A DNA stretch of 64,000 nucleotides from Microbacterium croceum (GTDB lineage: Bacteria > Actinomycetota > Actinomycetes > Actinomycetales > Microbacteriaceae). The translations under genes were made by a program, and so were the position numbers. A model generated the notes under the pieces. The model had not been told where the DNA came from. It saw only the letters and a list, made by a program, of their open reading frames with translations, and made no database searches. Shown piece after piece: positions 12,656 to 21,547 of the stretch. Position 1 is the first letter of the stretch. Each line of letters opens with the position of its first letter. The stretch is taken from contig NZ_JAHWXN010000001.1 in assembly GCF_023091245.1 (NCBI RefSeq), positions 1,178,001 through 1,242,000 of the forward strand. Reading direction: 5' to 3'.

Positions 12656-13978
12656 ATGAAGCGAACGTCACGGCTGCGTCTCGTGCGCGTCGCGATGGTC
12701 ACCGTCGTCGCCCTGCTGGGGGCCGTGCTGGTGCCGTCGCTGGGATCGGCGCCTTCCGCGTCAGCGGCGACGGACGGTCGGATGGTCTATCCCGCGTCGG
12801 GGAACATCCAGTCCAAGGTGGGCGACGGGTGTCGCTCCAACTACCGTGCGCACGACGGCATCGACATCTCGGGCCAGGGCGGAACGCCGATCCTGGCCGC
12901 ATACGACGGCATCGTCAGGACTCGCGCGTTCGGCAGCGGCTACGGAAACTACGTCGACATCGAGCACCCGGGCGGCTACGTCACCCGATACGCGCACATG
13001 GCAGCGCCGGGAACGGTCGCGCCCGGTGCACGCGTCGTACGCGGTCAGCAGATCGGCGTCGTCGGAAAGACCGGTGCCACGACCGCCCTTCACCTGCACT
13101 TCGAGGTGTGGCGCAACGGTGCGGTCTACACGCGGATCAACGACGGCTTCACGTGCCTGTCCAACGTCGCGCGGGGGACGGCGATCCCCTTGACCTTCCC
13201 CGGTCTGGGCGCGCTTCCGTATGCGGCGGTCCTCTCCGCGGACTACACCGGCAATCGCAAGGCGGATCTCCTCGGTATCGCCGCCGACAGCGACCTGCAC
13301 CACTTCGGAGGAACCGGCACGGGCAGGTTCGGATCGGCATCGATCATCACCTCGGCCTGGGGAACGCGTAAACACCTCACCCATACGGATTTCAACGGCG
13401 ATGGCGTGGGTGACATCCTGGTGGCGCGCAACGACGGAGTCCTCGAGTTCTACGCCGGTCGCGCGGGCGGCGGATTCGGAGGACTCAGCACCGCCGGCAC
13501 CGGGTGGTACACGATGCTGCTGGTGACGTCGGGAGCCGACTACACGGGCGACGGACGGCAGGATGTGCTCGGGGTGTCTCCTGCCGGGATGCTCTCGATC
13601 TATCGGGGAAACGGAGCGGGAGGTTTCACCGCGCCGACCGTGACCGTCGGCGGCGGATGGCAGGAATTCCGTCACCTTGTCGGCGGCGACTTCGACGATG
13701 ACGGCATCGGCGATCTCATGGCCGTCGACAGCGCCGGCACGCTCTTCTTCTATCCGGGCGTGGTCAACAAGTTCGGTGCGCGGCGGTCGCTCGGCGGTGG
13801 CTGGGGTGCGTTCACCGCCTTGACGGGAGGCGTGGACTACAACGGGGACGGCTTCGTGGACCTCATCGCGCGCACTGCGGCGGGTGAGCTGTATCTGTAT
13901 CCGGGAACGGGGTCGGGGACGCTCGGTGCTCGTACCCTGATCGGAACCGGCTGGAGCGGTTACCTCGAGCTGGAATGA
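12656..13978 (+). CDS. Secreted M23 metallopeptidase with FG-GAP/VCBS repeats
   Basis: 440 residues. A signal peptide (MKRTSRLRLVRVAMVTVVAL through SASA) leads to an M23/LytM domain at about 45-170 with the zinc ligands in RAHDGIDIS (HxxxD) and LHLHFE (HxH), so it should cleave peptidoglycan cross-bridges outside the cell. From about 195 to the end there are five repeats around DxNGDGxxDLL (DYTGNRKADLLGI, DFNGDGVGDILV, DYTGDGRQDVLG, DFDDDGIGDLMA, DYNGDGFVDLIA), calcium-loop sequences that fold into a beta-propeller. The propeller may bind the cell surface or a ligand. The combination of an M23 domain with an integrin-like propeller is unusual. Confidence 0.9.
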   Translation: MKRTSRLRLVRVAMVTVVALLGAVLVPSLGSAPSASAATDGRMVYPASGNIQSKVGDGCRSNYRAHDGIDISGQGGTPILAAYDGIVRTRAFGSGYGNYVDIEHPGGYVTRYAHMAAPGTVAPGARVVRGQQIGVVGKTGATTALHLHFEVWRNGAVYTRINDGFTCLSNVARGTAIPLTFPGLGALPYAAVLSADYTGNRKADLLGIAADSDLHHFGGTGTGRFGSASIITSAWGTRKHLTHTDFNGDGVGDILVARNDGVLEFYAGRAGGGFGGLSTAGTGWYTMLLVTSGADYTGDGRQDVLGVSPAGMLSIYRGNGAGGFTAPTVTVGGGWQEFRHLVGGDFDDDGIGDLMAVDSAGTLFFYPGVVNKFGARRSLGGGWGAFTALTGGVDYNGDGFVDLIARTAAGELYLYPGTGSGTLGARTLIGTGWSGYLELE

Positions 13979-15507: not shown

Positions 15508-15564
15508 CACACCGTCGGGGAATGACCCGCTCTTCGCGGGAAAACGCCCTTTCACCAGGGCAAG

Positions 15565-15673
15565 GCAAAACCCCCGCCATGTAGAAGCTAGGCGAGGGTT
15601 TCTGGGACCGTTGTAACGACGGTCCTTGTGGCTCCGACGGGCGTCGATCCCGTGACCTCACGATTTTCAGTCG
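15565..15673 (-). repeat. Attachment-site repeat, left copy (partial tRNA-Phe plus terminator)
   Basis: Identical to 19596-19704. It holds the last 45 nt of tRNA-Phe (15629-15673) and the tRNA's terminator hairpin, but not the tRNA 5' half, so it is the displaced chromosomal 3' end. Imperfect similarity to the right flank continues about 25 bp further left. Confidence 0.9.
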
Positions 15674-15807
15674 GATGCAGCGGGGTAACGAGTCTCATGT
15701 AGTGCTCGTTTGGCGCGTCAGTACGCGGGATGCGTCGTGGTTGGACGCAGGTGGTTTTGGGTGGATTCAGTGAAGCAACAGACACGGGACCGGCACGCAC
15801 AGTGTGC

Positions 15808-18024
15808 TCACACTCTGGCCCCCTCCTCTCCCCTGAGCGTGCCTTCCTCTATCGCACGCTCCAGGATGACCGGAATGCCGCCGTTCGAGTCATTCGTGAA
15901 AATACGGACCTCACGCTCTGCGCGCGTGACGGCAAGATACAGCAAAGAAAGCAGCCTCCGACGTTCGGGGGATGCTGCGTTCTCGGGTATCGCCGGAAGC
16001 CCGACGACAAGGACGGTTTCGAACTGCAGTCCAGCCAAGTTCTCGGCCGAACCGATCACGATGCCTTTGCTGCGGTAGCCGAAACCGTCGACGTCCTCGC
16101 GTGATGTGATCGCTCGAACATGAAACTTCTCATTGGCGCTGAGGGCTGAAGCAAGCTTGCGATACGGTGCGCTCAGGCGGTCATCGACGATTGCAATCGC
16201 CATACGGCCACGACCGTAGACGTCGTGGACGGCCCTGATGATGTCATACTCTTCCGCCTCTTCAGTGCTTGCGTTCCGAACAATCGGTACCTCACCGTCC
16301 TTCTGGGACGATTCGATCGTCGCAAAATCGACGAGCCACTCGTCGCCGAACGCGTAGGTCGGGAATCCGTGGTGGATGTGCTTTACGAGATCGAGGACCT
16401 GGGGTGTGAATCGGTGGACGGTTGTAAGTTCCAGATCGGTCGAGTCTGCAAGTGAATCGTCGTCCCTACCATATTCCCCAGACCTGACGTCGTCGGCCGC
16501 AGCGCCGATATATTTCGCTGCTGGCGACTGCCGTGGATCGAGCGCCATGAAGATGCGGGGATAATTGTGTGCATCCGACGGCAGGTAATGCAGCACCTGC
16601 CGTTCGAGTGGGCTGAAGAGATGAAACTCATCAACGAAGACAAGGTCGTAACCGACAGATTTGCGTCTGCGATTCCAAGAATGGCTGGTGAGATGGCCGA
16701 GAAAGTCAGCCATCACCTGGTCAGTGGTTACGAGCGAGCGATCCTCCAAGCTCTGCATGTATGCGGTGTACAGAGCGAAGATGATCCGGAAATCCTGCCG
16801 TCCATCAATCGGCATCATCCAGGCGGAGCGCGGCGTCTGTGCATATCGTGCTTCGGCGCCGTGTGACGGAAATATCCCGGCGGCGCCAATAACCGATCCG
16901 AACTCGGTCAGCAGATCCCAAGCAAAGGCAAGCCGCTCGCCATCATCGGACGACTCAAGCCCGTTGAGAATGGTTTTCGAGGCGCCGGAGCGGTAGGTCA
17001 CCCAATCTGTGGCGAGGAAATCTTCGATCACCCCACGGATTTCGTCGAGTTGCGCCTGCTTGCCTGAATCGCTGTCCTCTCCCACTACAGAGTAGTGGGA
17101 GGGGCCATCAGCGGTGATGGGAAGGATCTCTTCCGCAAGTGCGAGCAGAGGAACGATGTCGAGCTCAGGCAGCGGGCCGAGCCCTAGCATGTCAATGTTT
17201 CCAGAGATCTGGTTTGCAAGTGCCCAGCTGTGTGTTGTGATCAGAACGCGAATTTCTTCGCCGCGTGCTCGTGCCTGCACGATCTCCCACGCGGCTTTAA
17301 GAGTGAGGGCGAGCGTCTTCCCGGATCCAGCAGGGCCACGGAGTCTGATTGATCGAGTGGTTGAGGCGTCGATAAACGACCGCTGGTCTGGACTCGTTGC
17401 CCTGAGCCAGCCCGCGAGCGATACATCCTGTTGTTCGCCCGTCTGAACACGGGGAAGGAACACCTCAGCGTCGACCTCGCCACGCCGCTTCGACAGGTGG
17501 TCCTGGAGGTCGGAGATCGCCTGTTCCCAGTCCTGGATCACAGACTTAGGGAAGCGTGGGATCTCTTGCTGCAGTTGTTCGAGTCTTATGGGCGGGGTTG
17601 AATCATCACTTCGCCAGAACACGGTGAGACCGGGTCCCTGGTTGATTCGTTCCGTAATCCATCGGTGCCCACCACCACCGTGACCGGGAACGGCGAAGAA
17701 AGAAATAAGGTTGTCATGCTTGTACTGATGCCACGCCTTGGGGAGCGATACCTGCGACATCGTGGTTCGTTCGGCGTAAGAGGCCATTCGGCTGATAACT
17801 TCGCGCCGATGCTTGATCAATGCGTCCGGAACGAGGTTGTCCTGCGTGTGGGACTCTCGCCAGATCATCACTAACGGTGTGTCGCGGTCGTCATCGGTGG
17901 TCAAGAGAACGTCCGACTCGTCGTAGTGTGCAACAAAAATGCGCGGTGTGGCGTCAAGCGCTGCCTCGTCGATGGCCGATGCGACAAGACGGAGCGCTCG
18001 CGGTGACGTGATTAGCGGTTTCAA
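15808..18024 (-). CDS. SF1 UvrD/Rep-like helicase of the island
   Basis: 738 residues from a TTG that overlaps the stop of the upstream gene (TTGA), with GAGGA about 9 nt before it. Residues 1-205 match nothing I know. The helicase core follows: Q-motif-like SPDQRSFID (211-219), Walker A GPAGSGKT (230-237), motif II VFVDEFH (463-469) in place of the usual DExQ, motif III LDPRQS (495-500), motif V GLQFETVLVVGLP (665-677) and motif VI YLAVTRAE (696-703). All ATPase/helicase motifs are intact, so it should be an active DNA or RNA translocase. The low GC and translational coupling to an unknown partner suggest a transferred two-component module, plausibly antiviral; this is inference. Confidence 0.88.
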   Translation of the reverse strand: MKPLITSPRALRLVASAIDEAALDATPRIFVAHYDESDVLLTTDDDRDTPLVMIWRESHTQDNLVPDALIKHRREVISRMASYAERTTMSQVSLPKAWHQYKHDNLISFFAVPGHGGGGHRWITERINQGPGLTVFWRSDDSTPPIRLEQLQQEIPRFPKSVIQDWEQAISDLQDHLSKRRGEVDAEVFLPRVQTGEQQDVSLAGWLRATSPDQRSFIDASTTRSIRLRGPAGSGKTLALTLKAAWEIVQARARGEEIRVLITTHSWALANQISGNIDMLGLGPLPELDIVPLLALAEEILPITADGPSHYSVVGEDSDSGKQAQLDEIRGVIEDFLATDWVTYRSGASKTILNGLESSDDGERLAFAWDLLTEFGSVIGAAGIFPSHGAEARYAQTPRSAWMMPIDGRQDFRIIFALYTAYMQSLEDRSLVTTDQVMADFLGHLTSHSWNRRRKSVGYDLVFVDEFHLFSPLERQVLHYLPSDAHNYPRIFMALDPRQSPAAKYIGAAADDVRSGEYGRDDDSLADSTDLELTTVHRFTPQVLDLVKHIHHGFPTYAFGDEWLVDFATIESSQKDGEVPIVRNASTEEAEEYDIIRAVHDVYGRGRMAIAIVDDRLSAPYRKLASALSANEKFHVRAITSREDVDGFGYRSKGIVIGSAENLAGLQFETVLVVGLPAIPENAASPERRRLLSLLYLAVTRAEREVRIFTNDSNGGIPVILERAIEEGTLRGEEGARV

Positions 18025-18845
18025 TGGAGTTGTTCCTCTAGTCGTTCGGCATAGGCATTTCGTGTTTCCTCATACTCGTCGGGTAACCCAATAGGCATGA
18101 AAACCATGGCGAATCGCTGGACAACCGCATGGGAAAAGCGTTCAGAAAGCGCGCCGATTCGCCGGTACCCGCCGGCAGCGCGAGACGGCACAAGCGTGAT
18201 GGATTGCTCCCAGACCTGTTCTATGTGCCGTAAGTACGCGAAATAGCCTTCTTCATAGCCGGGAGCGATCGCGTTTAGGAACAGAGAGTCGCCACGGGGC
18301 TGCGTGAAGCGCTGCTTGATCGCCTTCTTCGCCTCTTTGAGCAGGCTGTCGGGCTTACGCCCCGTCTGGATCAGATTCTGCGATCGAACCAGATCCGTTG
18401 TCGCGTTCTGGACAGTTGTCCACCGCCGAGTGGCGATGCGGATTCCTTCGCATGCATCTTGCAGCAACTGTGTTGTGGGGGGTGGCACTTCGTAGGCAAG
18501 CGACACCTCGGTCGGGTCGTCGACTTCATTGCACCAAGCGACAAGCCGTTCATTGCTTGGAGGGCGTAGCCCAGCCTCGCTCAATGCCGCTTTGAACGCT
18601 TCAACGTGGGTCTTCTGCAATATCCCGTGTTGTTCAGGGAAGTAGATCTCGAGCAGGTACTCGTTCGGGCTCAGAAGCGGGATGCAAGTTATCCGACCTG
18701 AATGCTTGTTATAGGCGAGGTCACAGTCGGCGGTGACGACCAGGAGATGGCGGTTCCAGGGGGTGCCCTCTCCCGTAGCCAACTCCAGCACGTCGCCCTG
18801 CTGGAGCTCCTCTTCTGCGGTACGGGAGTTGACTTCGTTGATCAA
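18021..18845 (-). CDS. Unrecognised DCDL-motif protein paired with the island helicase
   Basis: 274 residues from a TTG with GAGG just upstream. The N-terminal region has QGDVLELA then, after a strand, LLVVTADCDLAYNK with D40-C41-D42-L43. A GDV strand followed by a DCDL strand recurs in uncharacterised proteins I associate with mobile and defence-type loci, but I cannot name the family. The middle is helical (ATRRWTTVQNATTDLVRSQN, LLKEAKKAIKQRF) and the C-terminus is charged. No membrane segment or clear nuclease motif is seen. The 4-bp overlap with the helicase gene implies one mRNA and coupled expression. A sensor, regulator or effector role for the helicase is possible but unproven. Confidence 0.8.
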   Translation of the reverse strand: MINEVNSRTAEEELQQGDVLELATGEGTPWNRHLLVVTADCDLAYNKHSGRITCIPLLSPNEYLLEIYFPEQHGILQKTHVEAFKAALSEAGLRPPSNERLVAWCNEVDDPTEVSLAYEVPPPTTQLLQDACEGIRIATRRWTTVQNATTDLVRSQNLIQTGRKPDSLLKEAKKAIKQRFTQPRGDSLFLNAIAPGYEEGYFAYLRHIEQVWEQSITLVPSRAAGGYRRIGALSERFSHAVVQRFAMVFMPIGLPDEYEETRNAYAERLEEQLH

Positions 18846-19077
18846 TGCGCCTCGCTGGGTCGAAGGGGTTGGTGGCGAGTGTAGTCGATATGGGACGCCG
18901 CCCTTGAATGAGTAAAGAGAGTTCTCACAAGGTTGAAGCAGGGGCTCTTAACAAACCGCCATCGAGCGAGGCGCGGTCCCGATCGCAGTCGCGTCCCAGC
19001 GGCAGCGGCGCACCGGCTGTGGCCTCATGCCTCAGGTCGTCACCCTGCTAAATCGCGGCTTGACTCTTTCGAGAATC

Positions 19078-19103
19078 CGAAACAAGTGAACGAGCTTGTT
19101 TCG
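19078..19103. promoter_or_regulatory. Operator-like inverted repeat
   Basis: Perfect 9-bp arms CGAAACAAG and CTTGTTTCG with an 8-bp spacer, about 45 bp before the -35 box of the small island gene. The size fits a dimeric repressor site. Confidence 0.45.
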
Positions 19104-19148
19104 AACTATGACCTGGAGTTTTTTCCAGAACGGTCAGTGTCCCCCGGC

Positions 19149-19176
19149 TTGACAGGCTTCGCTGATCGGTTAGAGA
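19149..19176 (+). promoter_or_regulatory. Promoter of the ICE-type small gene
   Basis: TTGACA at 19149-19154 and TAGAGA at 19171-19176, spacer 16 bp. The transcript would have a leader of about 80 nt carrying an imperfect hairpin at 19219-19251 just before the AGGAGG ribosome site. Confidence 0.6.
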
Positions 19177-19265
19177 AGGCTGGTGGGTCCCGGTCGTGTC
19201 AGGGTGCCGAAGCACTGTGGAGTTGTTCCCGCAATCGCGGAACACAACTCCAACAGGAGGTTGCA

Positions 19266-19544
19266 ATGGCTATCCAGACATCCATCCCGGTCAACTTCGA
19301 GGTGTACTTCCCGCGCGGAGCCTTCATGGTCGGTGAGGTCGAGCCGGTCGCGAAGTGGTCCGACGACGGCCAGCGCCAGGGGCAGGACCTCGACAAGCGC
19401 ACAGGGCACCCCCTGTGGCAAGTGCGGATCATCGACGCGGACCCGGACGCCAAGAAGGGTCAGGGAGAGGTGACAGTCAAGATCGCGAGCATCGCCGAGC
19501 CGCCAGCACCGCAAAAGCCGGAGCTCCACTCGCTCAACGACTGA
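19266..19544 (+). CDS. ICE-type small protein (plasmid replication/integration/excision activator-like)
   Basis: 92 residues, with an excellent AGGAGG five bases before the ATG. The start MAIQTSIPVNFEVYFPRGAF and the block MVGEVEPVAKWSDDGQ, then GHPLWQVRIIDADPDA, are characteristic of a small protein at the head of actinomycete integrative conjugative elements that is annotated as a replication, integration and excision activator. Its biochemical role is poorly known. In complete elements it precedes FtsK-like transfer, replication, excisionase and integrase genes; none of these follow here, since the attachment repeat begins 51 bp after the stop. It is therefore the best evidence that the island descends from such an element. 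Confidence 0.75.
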   Translation: MAIQTSIPVNFEVYFPRGAFMVGEVEPVAKWSDDGQRQGQDLDKRTGHPLWQVRIIDADPDAKKGQGEVTVKIASIAEPPAPQKPELHSLND

Positions 19545-19595
19545 GTCGGAACAGTCCAGGGGAGCGGCTCGGAAAACGCCCCTCGCCAGGGCAAA

Positions 19596-19704
19596 GCAAA
19601 ACCCCCGCCATGTAGAAGCTAGGCGAGGGTTTCTGGGACCGTTGTAACGACGGTCCTTGTGGCTCCGACGGGCGTCGATCCCGTGACCTCACGATTTTCA
19701 GTCG
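19596..19704 (-). repeat. Attachment-site repeat, right copy
   Basis: Identical to 15565-15673. Here the repeat completes the functional tRNA-Phe gene, so its 3' half was presumably supplied by the incoming element. Confidence 0.9.
19598..19633 (-). terminator. Rho-independent terminator of tRNA-Phe
   Basis: Read on the minus strand: AAACCCTCGCC, a 12-nt loop, GGCGGGGGTTTTG, giving a GC-rich stem with a T run. A duplicate lies in the left attachment repeat at 15567-15602. A second hairpin (GGACCGT / ACGGTCC) sits between it and the tRNA. Confidence 0.75.
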
Positions 19705-19732
19705 TGCGCTCTACCAACTGAGCTACAGAGCC
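19660..19732 (-). tRNA. tRNA-Phe (GAA)
   Basis: 73 nt with acceptor GGCTCTG / CGGAGCC, D arm AGCTCAGTTGGTAGAGC, anticodon loop CTGAAAATC (GAA) and T arm GGGATCGACGCCC. CCA is not encoded. The 3' part is shared with the left attachment repeat. Confidence 0.97.
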
Positions 19733-19976: not shown

Positions 19977-20185
19977 GAGTCAGTCCCGGGGGACTTCCTT
20001 GCCGACGCTCAAGCATAAGGGATGTCTGAGGCAAATCGCGAATCGAGGGCGCGGCGGCTTCCTCCCGGGCGTGTTCAGGGGGACGATGGAGGCGTCACCC
20101 GTGCGCACGAACTCACGATCTCACCTGTTGCGGATGTGAAAGTTGTTGTTAGTGTGACATGTGTGAAACCGGCGGAAGGGGCCGT

Positions 20186-21547
20186 GTGAACGATCTGACC
20201 ACGGCGGATGCGGCAGCTGCAGCATCCGCGGAATGCGGGTGTGCGCCGAGCCCGGCTGAGAGCCGCGCGCTCCGCAAGAGCGGCATCACGCGCCGCGGTG
20301 CCCTCGGACTCGGCGCTCTGAGCGTCGTCGCGCTGAGCGCATTCGGTGTCACCTCCGGTGTCTCCGCCGCCTACGCCGCGTCCTATCCGAGCTGGGACGA
20401 CGTGCAGAAGGCCAAGAAGAACCAGGCGGCGAAGGCGGCAGAGGTCAGTCGCATCGAAGGCCTCATCCAGTCCCTCACGCAGAAGGTCGCCGAGACGCAG
20501 GCGGCCGCGAAGGTCGCTTCCGACGACTTCTTCAAAGCTCAGCAGGAGTACTTCGCCGCGATCGCCAAGGCAGAGGAGCTCCAGGCGAAAGCCGACGAGC
20601 AGTCCGGCATCGCCGACGAATCCGCCCGTAAGGCAGGTCAGGTCGCGGCGCAGCTGTACCGCAACGGTGGCGACGACACCTCTCTCGAGCTGTTCTTCGC
20701 CGGTTCCGCCAGCAACGCCGACGAACTTCTGTCGCGCCTGGGCACGATGGACAAGCTCCTCGAATTCAACCAGTCCGTCTACGACGATGCAGTCGCGGCA
20801 CGCAACTCCGCGCAGTCTCTGAGCGATCAGGCCGTCGTCGCACGAACCGAGCGCGACCGCCTGCAGCAGATCGCCGAGCAGAAGATGGTCGCGGCGCAGC
20901 AGGCGGCCGACGCGGCACAGGCCGCGCTCGACGAGCAGTCCGCGAACCTCGCCACGATGCAGGCGCAGCTCGCCGCGCTCAAGGACACGACCGCCAAGAC
21001 GGTCGCCCAGTACCAGAAGGGCGTGGAAGAGGCCGAGAAGGAGCGCAAGCGTCGCGAGGCTGCCGAGGCGGCAGCAGCTGCGGCCGCTGCCGGTGGCAAC
21101 AGTGGCGGCGGCGGTGGCGGCGGTTCGCCTGCTTCCAGCGGTTGGGTGCGTCCGCACGGCGGCTACCGCAGCTCGGGCTACGGACCCCGCTCACAGCAGT
21201 GCAACGCGAACGGATGCTCCTCGAGCTGGCACTACGGCGTCGACCTGGCGAACGGCTGCGGTGCGGCCATCTACGCCGCGCACTCCGGCACCGTCGACGC
21301 GGCCTTCTACAACGGCGGCTACGGCAACTACGTGCGCATCCAGCACGGAGGCGGCATCGCCACCGGGTACGCGCACATCCGCCAGTTCGCCGTCCGCAGC
21401 GGCCAGTGGGTCAGGGCGGGACAGGTCATCGCCTACGCCGGGAACACCGGAGGCTCGTTCGGGTGCCACCTCCACTTCGAGGTGTACATCAACGGGGCCT
21501 ACACGAACCCGATCAACTTCATGGCGGGCAAGGGCATCTCGGTCTGA
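20186..21547 (+). CDS. Secreted coiled-coil M23 peptidase (EnvC/NlpD-like)
   Basis: 453 residues from a GTG with GGAAGG six bases upstream; an ATG at 20159 lacks a ribosome site. About 35 residues precede ITRRGALGLGALSVVALSAF, a twin-arginine-type signal ending YAAS. Residues about 70-310 form a long coiled coil (VSRIEGLIQSLTQKVAETQA and similar), then a Gly-rich linker, then the M23 domain with zinc ligands in SSWHYGVDLAN and GCHLHFEV. This is the architecture of peptidoglycan hydrolases or hydrolase activators used in cell separation and growth. Both metal-binding motifs are intact, so it is probably an active endopeptidase. Confidence 0.92.
   Translation: MNDLTTADAAAAASAECGCAPSPAESRALRKSGITRRGALGLGALSVVALSAFGVTSGVSAAYAASYPSWDDVQKAKKNQAAKAAEVSRIEGLIQSLTQKVAETQAAAKVASDDFFKAQQEYFAAIAKAEELQAKADEQSGIADESARKAGQVAAQLYRNGGDDTSLELFFAGSASNADELLSRLGTMDKLLEFNQSVYDDAVAARNSAQSLSDQAVVARTERDRLQQIAEQKMVAAQQAADAAQAALDEQSANLATMQAQLAALKDTTAKTVAQYQKGVEEAEKERKRREAAEAAAAAAAAGGNSGGGGGGGSPASSGWVRPHGGYRSSGYGPRSQQCNANGCSSSWHYGVDLANGCGAAIYAAHSGTVDAAFYNGGYGNYVRIQHGGGIATGYAHIRQFAVRSGQWVRAGQVIAYAGNTGGSFGCHLHFEVYINGAYTNPINFMAGKGISV

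Follow-up and report, generated by a model that had tools for sequence, protein, structure and literature searches.

The window analysed here, a 64,000-nucleotide stretch of the Microbacterium croceum genome (assembly GCF_023091245.1, contig NZ_JAHWXN010000001.1, positions 1,178,001 to 1,242,000), carries on its minus strand two overlapping genes, one encoding a 738-amino-acid (aa) superfamily 1 (SF1) helicase of the UvrD/Rep/HelD type (15808..18024) and the other a 274-aa protein named here after its DCDL signature (18021..18845). An earlier note on this DNA had described them as minus-strand genes with TTG starts and a 4-bp overlap, lower in guanine + cytosine (GC) than the flanking chromosome, and had proposed that they form a defence or plasmid-interference module. 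The arrangement is as described: both open reading frames (ORFs) begin with TTG, and the shared bases TTGA (18021..18024, minus strand) are at once the start of the helicase gene and the stop of the DCDL gene. GC content is 0.580 for the pair against 0.683 for the window outside the island and repeats detailed below, and values this low were reached by 6 of 610 windows of the pair's length. A scan for sigma-70-type promoters returned 0, with 1.2 expected. Placement in the genus agrees with a 98%-identical protein known from a named Microbacterium. Features recognised beyond the earlier note are a 4.03-kb island, a 122-bp repeat at a tRNA-Phe gene, and a predicted fold for the 274-aa protein.

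The helicase was assigned using the ORF list, Pfam (UvrD) and a fold search, which together recovered the Walker A motif, motif II, motif VI and the core fold of the SF1 UvrD/Rep group. The motifs named in the earlier note were all located, GPAGSGKT at 230-237 as stated there (17314..17337), VDEFH at 464-468 (16621..16635) and YLAVTRAE at 696-703 (15916..15939), all on the minus strand, with LAVTRAE starting at 697; DPRQS at 496 and VHRFTP at 536 are further helicase motifs. By similarity the core is closest to UvrD/Rep/PcrA and HelD. It is preceded by about 200 extra N-terminal residues, and in this region (residues 1-192; 17449..18024, minus strand) R79 and R121 are invariant in 21 sequences.

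The signature of the 274-aa protein is the TADCDL motif (residues 38-43; 18717..18734, minus strand), located from alignments: TADCD is kept in 46 of the 46 aligned homologues, and A39, C41 and D42 (A-x-C-D) are invariant among 17 more diverse members. R206 is invariant and K47 nearly so in the family, and F249, I252 and G253, also invariant in the 17 members, stand at the end of the last helix of the barrel described below. No family was found for the protein in Pfam, PADLOC, NCBIfam or PHROGs at an expect value (E) up to 1, and when Pfam was consulted for the window's own protein at E up to 5 the number of matching families was 0, PemK_toxin (PF02452) being among those covered. No housekeeping function is therefore assigned to the DCDL protein, an outcome in line with the idea of a dedicated system. 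The family profile gave no credible match against PDB sequences, and a wider profile search, run with 1e-5 as the E limit, returned 156 proteins, 118 of the 120 listed being already known homologues and two being new; among the matches listed there was thus no bridge to a named family. Two candidate assignments were rejected: PIN nuclease, a name carried by two UniRef entries, was dropped on the grounds that the precomputed Pfam column was empty and the fold search gave MazF/CcdB, and a match to VMAP-M2 in 1 of 46 members (E 0.0036) was judged to be due to chance.

The earlier note had seen in this protein a DCDL signature and no known function. The former is borne out and no family could be added, yet the fold appears recognisable: the structure model and the fold search predict a MazF/CcdB barrel broken by a helical insertion some 120 residues long (approximately residues 60-181), so that on the model the MazF-type barrel of the MazF/PemK family would be present. 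MazF/PemK proteins use a catalytic Arg and Thr, and members of the CcdB family poison gyrase through C-terminal residues. In a weak profile alignment the column of the MazF Arg falls on R32, which varies, and that of the Thr on L58, so that neither residue appears to be kept in the family; since A-x-C-D and R206 are invariant, a new site seems more likely than the classical MazF one. Two further genes of the PemK/MazF family occur elsewhere in the window's own genome (G000:C1:1062251 and 2561928).

Conservation of the pair was examined by building a profile from 46 homologues of the 274-aa protein and running it against one genome per species. This yielded 23 loci (21 in Actinomycetota, one in Hymenobacter and one in Acidithiobacillus), and in 23 of 23 a helicase of about 740 aa directly follows the 274-aa gene on the same strand. 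Taking the candidate start nearest to the stop, a 4-bp NTGA overlap was counted in 16 of the 23; two loci (L013 and L020) allow this reading or one in which the start is a few bases further downstream. In the remaining five, the helicase start lies in a range from 7 bases ahead of the final base of the stop to 8 bases past it. Three of the loci are from Lentzea, so that they are not all independent. At one Lentzea albidocapillata locus (L018:9920-10809) the frame of the 274-aa gene is broken in two, with that of the helicase remaining open. Among 366 Microbacterium species genomes, the window's own included, the 274-aa protein was found in 3, and the helicase, with an E limit of 1e-30, in exactly these 3; among 296 genomes spread across the phylum, the window's own genome was the only one in which either gene was found (E limit for the helicase 1e-60). 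The pair, known from three phyla, is thus rare, patchy and always complete in the sets examined, and the check proposed earlier, namely whether homologues of the two genes are adjacent, came out in favour of a system.

An overlapping two-gene operon with a predicted MazF/CcdB fold, located on an island and, as described below, on plasmids, could also be a toxin-antitoxin-like addiction module, wherein the toxin would be restrained by the helicase and the module would retain the island or plasmid. A small antitoxin was not seen, the 738-aa ATPase partner is unlike known antitoxins, the MazF catalytic residues are apparently not kept, and a frequency of 3 in 366 is low for the genus; this explanation is regarded as quite unlikely.

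The pair lies in an island framed by two direct copies of a 122-bp repeat, which differ by 2 mismatches and are spaced 4,031 bp apart. The left, attL-like copy (15552..15673) comprises the 3' part of tRNA-Phe and downstream sequence, whereas the right, attR-like copy (19583..19704) lies within and downstream of the intact tRNA-Phe(gaa) gene (19659..19732, minus strand), the integration target. The body between them (15674..19582) has a GC content of 0.587 and contains, besides the pair, a 92-aa plus-strand ORF (19266..19544) that is 32% identical to a Streptomyces "plasmid replication, integration and excision activator" (Pra-like) and 46% identical to an unannotated Nonomuraea stretch; judged from these sequence matches, it is probably a leftover of an integrative plasmid. 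No integrase was found on reading the ORF list of the island. Comparison with three relatives (G394, G388 and G365) was performed using BLAST limits of 1e-8 for DNA and 1e-5 for proteins: all three have a homologue of the M23-type gene of the left flank (63, 63 and 41% identical, respectively) and the tRNA-Phe/Asp/Glu cluster found to the right of the island, and in none was the island body detected, save about 50 bp in G365 that correspond to the stretch adjoining the right repeat. Island-like plasmid DNA was searched for among plasmid DNA, and none was found. The whole is best described as a minimal, possibly immobilised tRNA-borne island that may be the remnant of an integrative plasmid.

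Such a remnant could be decaying and its genes without present function, an explanation with which the missing integrase agrees, as does the fact that the Pra-like ORF is the only gene of plasmid type. Both genes are nevertheless intact, the helicase motifs are present and conservation across phyla is strong, and inert cargo is accordingly held to be highly improbable.

The same tRNA-Phe end has an insert in another Microbacterium genome (G574, contig L055), where a second repeat copy lies about 10 kb away and a stretch of 238 bp that takes in the 122-bp repeat matches positions 15533-15770 of the window at 76% identity. This insert of about 10 kb (L055:7575-17800) contains genes for a C5 DNA methyltransferase and a tyrosine recombinase and, as judged by eye only, AAA/OLD-like ATPase and nuclease-like ORFs. 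With a repeat-framed insert in G574 also, the tRNA-Phe site has probably been used recurrently, and it is probably a recurrent defence hotspot in the genus. Over positions 15559-15673 the left repeat shares 99% identity with the tRNA-Phe site of Microbacterium G425 and 88-89% with those of G394, G388 and G365, which hints that the site was imported together with the island. Genes for secreted proteins that appear by eye to be of the M23-peptidase type (12656-13978 and 20159-21547) flank the island and tRNA cluster, and about 110 residues of the second protein align at 41% identity with the homologue that the relatives have of the first.

The pair was also sought outside species genomes. Two Agrobacterium pusense plasmids carry it complete and with the 4-bp overlap, adjoining multiubiquitin, ThiF and DUF6527 genes, the relative orientation differing between the plasmids. 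Near these two pairs (L048:1-9739 and L049:13130-20807) there is also a set comprising a DEAD helicase, a response regulator and a 1133-aa UvrD helicase, which looks like a further uncharacterised system. Among viral contigs the 274-aa protein was detected at two loci; one contig also yielded the helicase, and at the other locus (L110:7971-11008) the pair, again with a 4-bp overlap, is placed inside a P2-like structural-gene block. An upstream ORF there matches capsid proteins, some of the P2 family, in 353 phage records, a nearer ORF resembles tail-completion proteins, and the downstream ORF resembles baseplate J proteins. P2-like phages are described as having a defence-system hotspot that adjoins the cos site (PMC9122126), unlike the position of the pair between the tail-completion and baseplate J genes.

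Relatives of the helicase occur in 91 plasmid records, 79 of them named Escherichia. On the E. coli plasmid pMDR31 (L112:6731-9785) a 262-aa "hypothetical protein" gene and a UvrD-helicase gene lie one base apart; the 262-aa protein belongs, as a distant relative, to the DCDL family (94% probability in hhalign, with TARCD replacing TADCD), and its helicase gives a 99.8% match over the core and none over the N-terminal region. DNA like this pair is present in 113 of 5,426 complete E. coli genomes, in 109 of them with at least 80% of the pair DNA, and all these occurrences are plasmid-borne, with 0 on chromosomes.

The pair might instead be an accessory of mobile elements for DNA repair, recombination or replication, serving the processing of the element's own DNA (stability, conjugation, replication restart) and not immunity. 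The kinship of the helicase core with the UvrD/Rep/PcrA and HelD enzymes, and carriage on an island and plasmids, would agree with such a role. The carriers are however of different kinds (tRNA island, plasmids, P2-like phage, chromosomal loci), so that a common replication mode is improbable, and several of the neighbours that can be named are restriction-modification, DISARM or GajA genes; this explanation is considered unlikely.

For the study of neighbours, the closest genes of 150 aa or more, at most three per side, were taken at 21 loci, giving 117 proteins; genes were called by a purpose-made ORF chooser and not from annotation (L048 and L049 were read from annotation). The set excludes L018 (close to L010), L056 (a copy of L017), and L012 and L014, which are short. 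Nine large neighbour genes, chosen by size, were compared with PADLOC models and gave DISARM DrmA at L023, a type I restriction enzyme at L021 and a type IIG-like enzyme at L009 (E 6.5e-15), whereas in the same scan L007 and L017 matched subtilase or IetS models only and four genes had no match. Across the 117 proteins, the matches listed (25 of 81 families) include DrmA, DrmB, DrmC, GajA, RT_UG22, a type I methylase and a type I restriction enzyme. Eighteen of the 117 were also scanned individually. Ten were mapped to their loci: GajA (E 8.8e-192) belongs to L009, the type I methylase to L021 and a partial PDC-M37B/DolB match to L016, and seven had no match. The control consisted of 114 proteins from 19 arbitrary stretches at round coordinates, unmatched by species to the 21 neighbourhoods; the matches listed for it (25 of 42 families) include mad3 in six proteins, PD-T4-6, mad6, SspA/DndA, a GlgB-like model, a kinase model and MkoA, which we judged to be mostly housekeeping relatives. 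Neighbour and control matches thus differ in kind. The expectation that the pair would co-occur with known defence genes holds for some loci, and for most no known defence gene was mapped, as counted below.

An intact ATP-driven translocase, a partner with a predicted toxin fold, varied carriers and some defence-type neighbours together point to a module directed against mobile genetic elements. An anti-virus or anti-plasmid role is likely, being the likeliest reading of the pair, and the module proposed in the earlier note gains support from the pairing, the carriers and part of the neighbourhoods, defence function itself remaining at the level of inference. More precisely, it is considered reasonably probable that the two genes make up a small mobile system protecting its carrier from incoming mobile DNA, be it phage or plasmid; the fold, the pairing and the carriers weigh most in this estimate.

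Several results weigh against it. Helicase residues 1-192, previously described as unassignable, indeed gave no credible match against Pfam or PDB sequences and have no assigned fold, and the structure model of the helicase is middling (predicted template modelling score 0.45). For the barrel, the best Foldseek E to MazF is 0.019, with a template modelling score of about 0.3 on the model and root-mean-square deviations of 3.5-11 Å, and profile-profile support for MazF is weak (best hhalign probability 31% with the insert cut out, using a profile of 28 sequences from which L092 and L099 were left out). The 274-aa protein is rare, being found in 2 of 72,556 plasmid records, those of Agrobacterium pusense, and in 0 of 50,697 phage records. 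Among the families listed, clear known systems were mapped in 3 of 21 neighbourhoods (L009, L021 and L023) and a partial one in L016, leaving 17 of 21 with none mapped, and the RT_UG22 reverse transcriptase was not mapped to any locus.

As to how such a defence might work, strict pairing and overlapping genes suggest that the two proteins would form a complex in fixed ratio. The helicase, with its own N-terminal region, may engage DNA or RNA of the invader (replication forks, ends, R-loops) and would spend ATP on switching on the MazF-fold subunit or bringing it into place. This subunit would then be the effector, licensed by the sensing or processing of invader nucleic acid by the helicase; it might act as a nuclease or, in a CcdB-like manner, bind and poison a host or phage enzyme. 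These details are graded below the defence reading itself. A new two-component immunity, in which an SF1 helicase licenses a MazF/CcdB effector acting through a new A-x-C-D site, which would have taken the place of the classical RNase site, or as a CcdB-like poison at the end of the last helix of the barrel, is put forward as a tentative and still rather doubtful model. Were it true, helicase-based defence would be linked to the MazF/CcdB toxin superfamily as a separate subunit, and such immunity would be common to actinobacterial islands, a P2-like phage and E. coli plasmids. The version on E. coli plasmids makes the proposal testable in laboratory strains with standard phages. Because PADLOC 2023 has no model that picks up the 274-aa protein, defence counts made from those models would miss it.

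Pairs of a helicase and an effector, such as Gabija and Hachiman, are common among bacterial defences. A literature search by title and start of abstract found no description of the present pair, which may be in print elsewhere. Gabija likewise has two genes, one of them for a UvrD-like helicase. The window's helicase matches GajB weakly and partially (best E 3.1e-4, residues 662-712, PADLOC) and its E. coli version does so at E 2.8e-14, a weak signal such as UvrD relatives may show; the partner, which PADLOC does not match at E up to 1 and which has another predicted fold, differs, as do the roughly 200 extra residues ahead of the helicase core, and the island has no ORF of GajA size besides the helicase. 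In Hachiman, HamB is a superfamily 2 helicase, and the nuclease HamA comes from another family; the two-gene logic of helicase plus effector is shared, but none of the 3 island proteins matched a Ham profile in PADLOC and the helicase here belongs to SF1. The earlier statement that neither partner resembles GajA or HamA stands for the partner, and is to be qualified for the helicase by its weak GajB-like signal.

ARMADA type II is described as placing a YprA-like helicase, a PglX-like methylase and a BrxHII-like helicase beside the UvrD helicase ArmD, which bears a RelE-like N-terminal domain (PMC12458937). The island differs in having the pair and the 92-aa ORF only, with no YprA, PglX or BrxHII genes, and in that the toxin-like fold is a separate protein of MazF and not RelE type. 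As to a RelE-like domain, residues 1-192 of the helicase, which the fold search barely covered, gave no credible sequence match. From MazF, PemK and CcdB the 274-aa protein is set apart by the helical insert, the lack of a Pfam match, the apparent loss of Arg and Thr, the invariant A-x-C-D and the helicase partner, and from type II toxin-antitoxin modules by a next gene that in all loci encodes the large helicase and not a small antitoxin. To the helicase-plus-effector defences the pair would add an effector whose fold is met chiefly in toxin-antitoxin modules.
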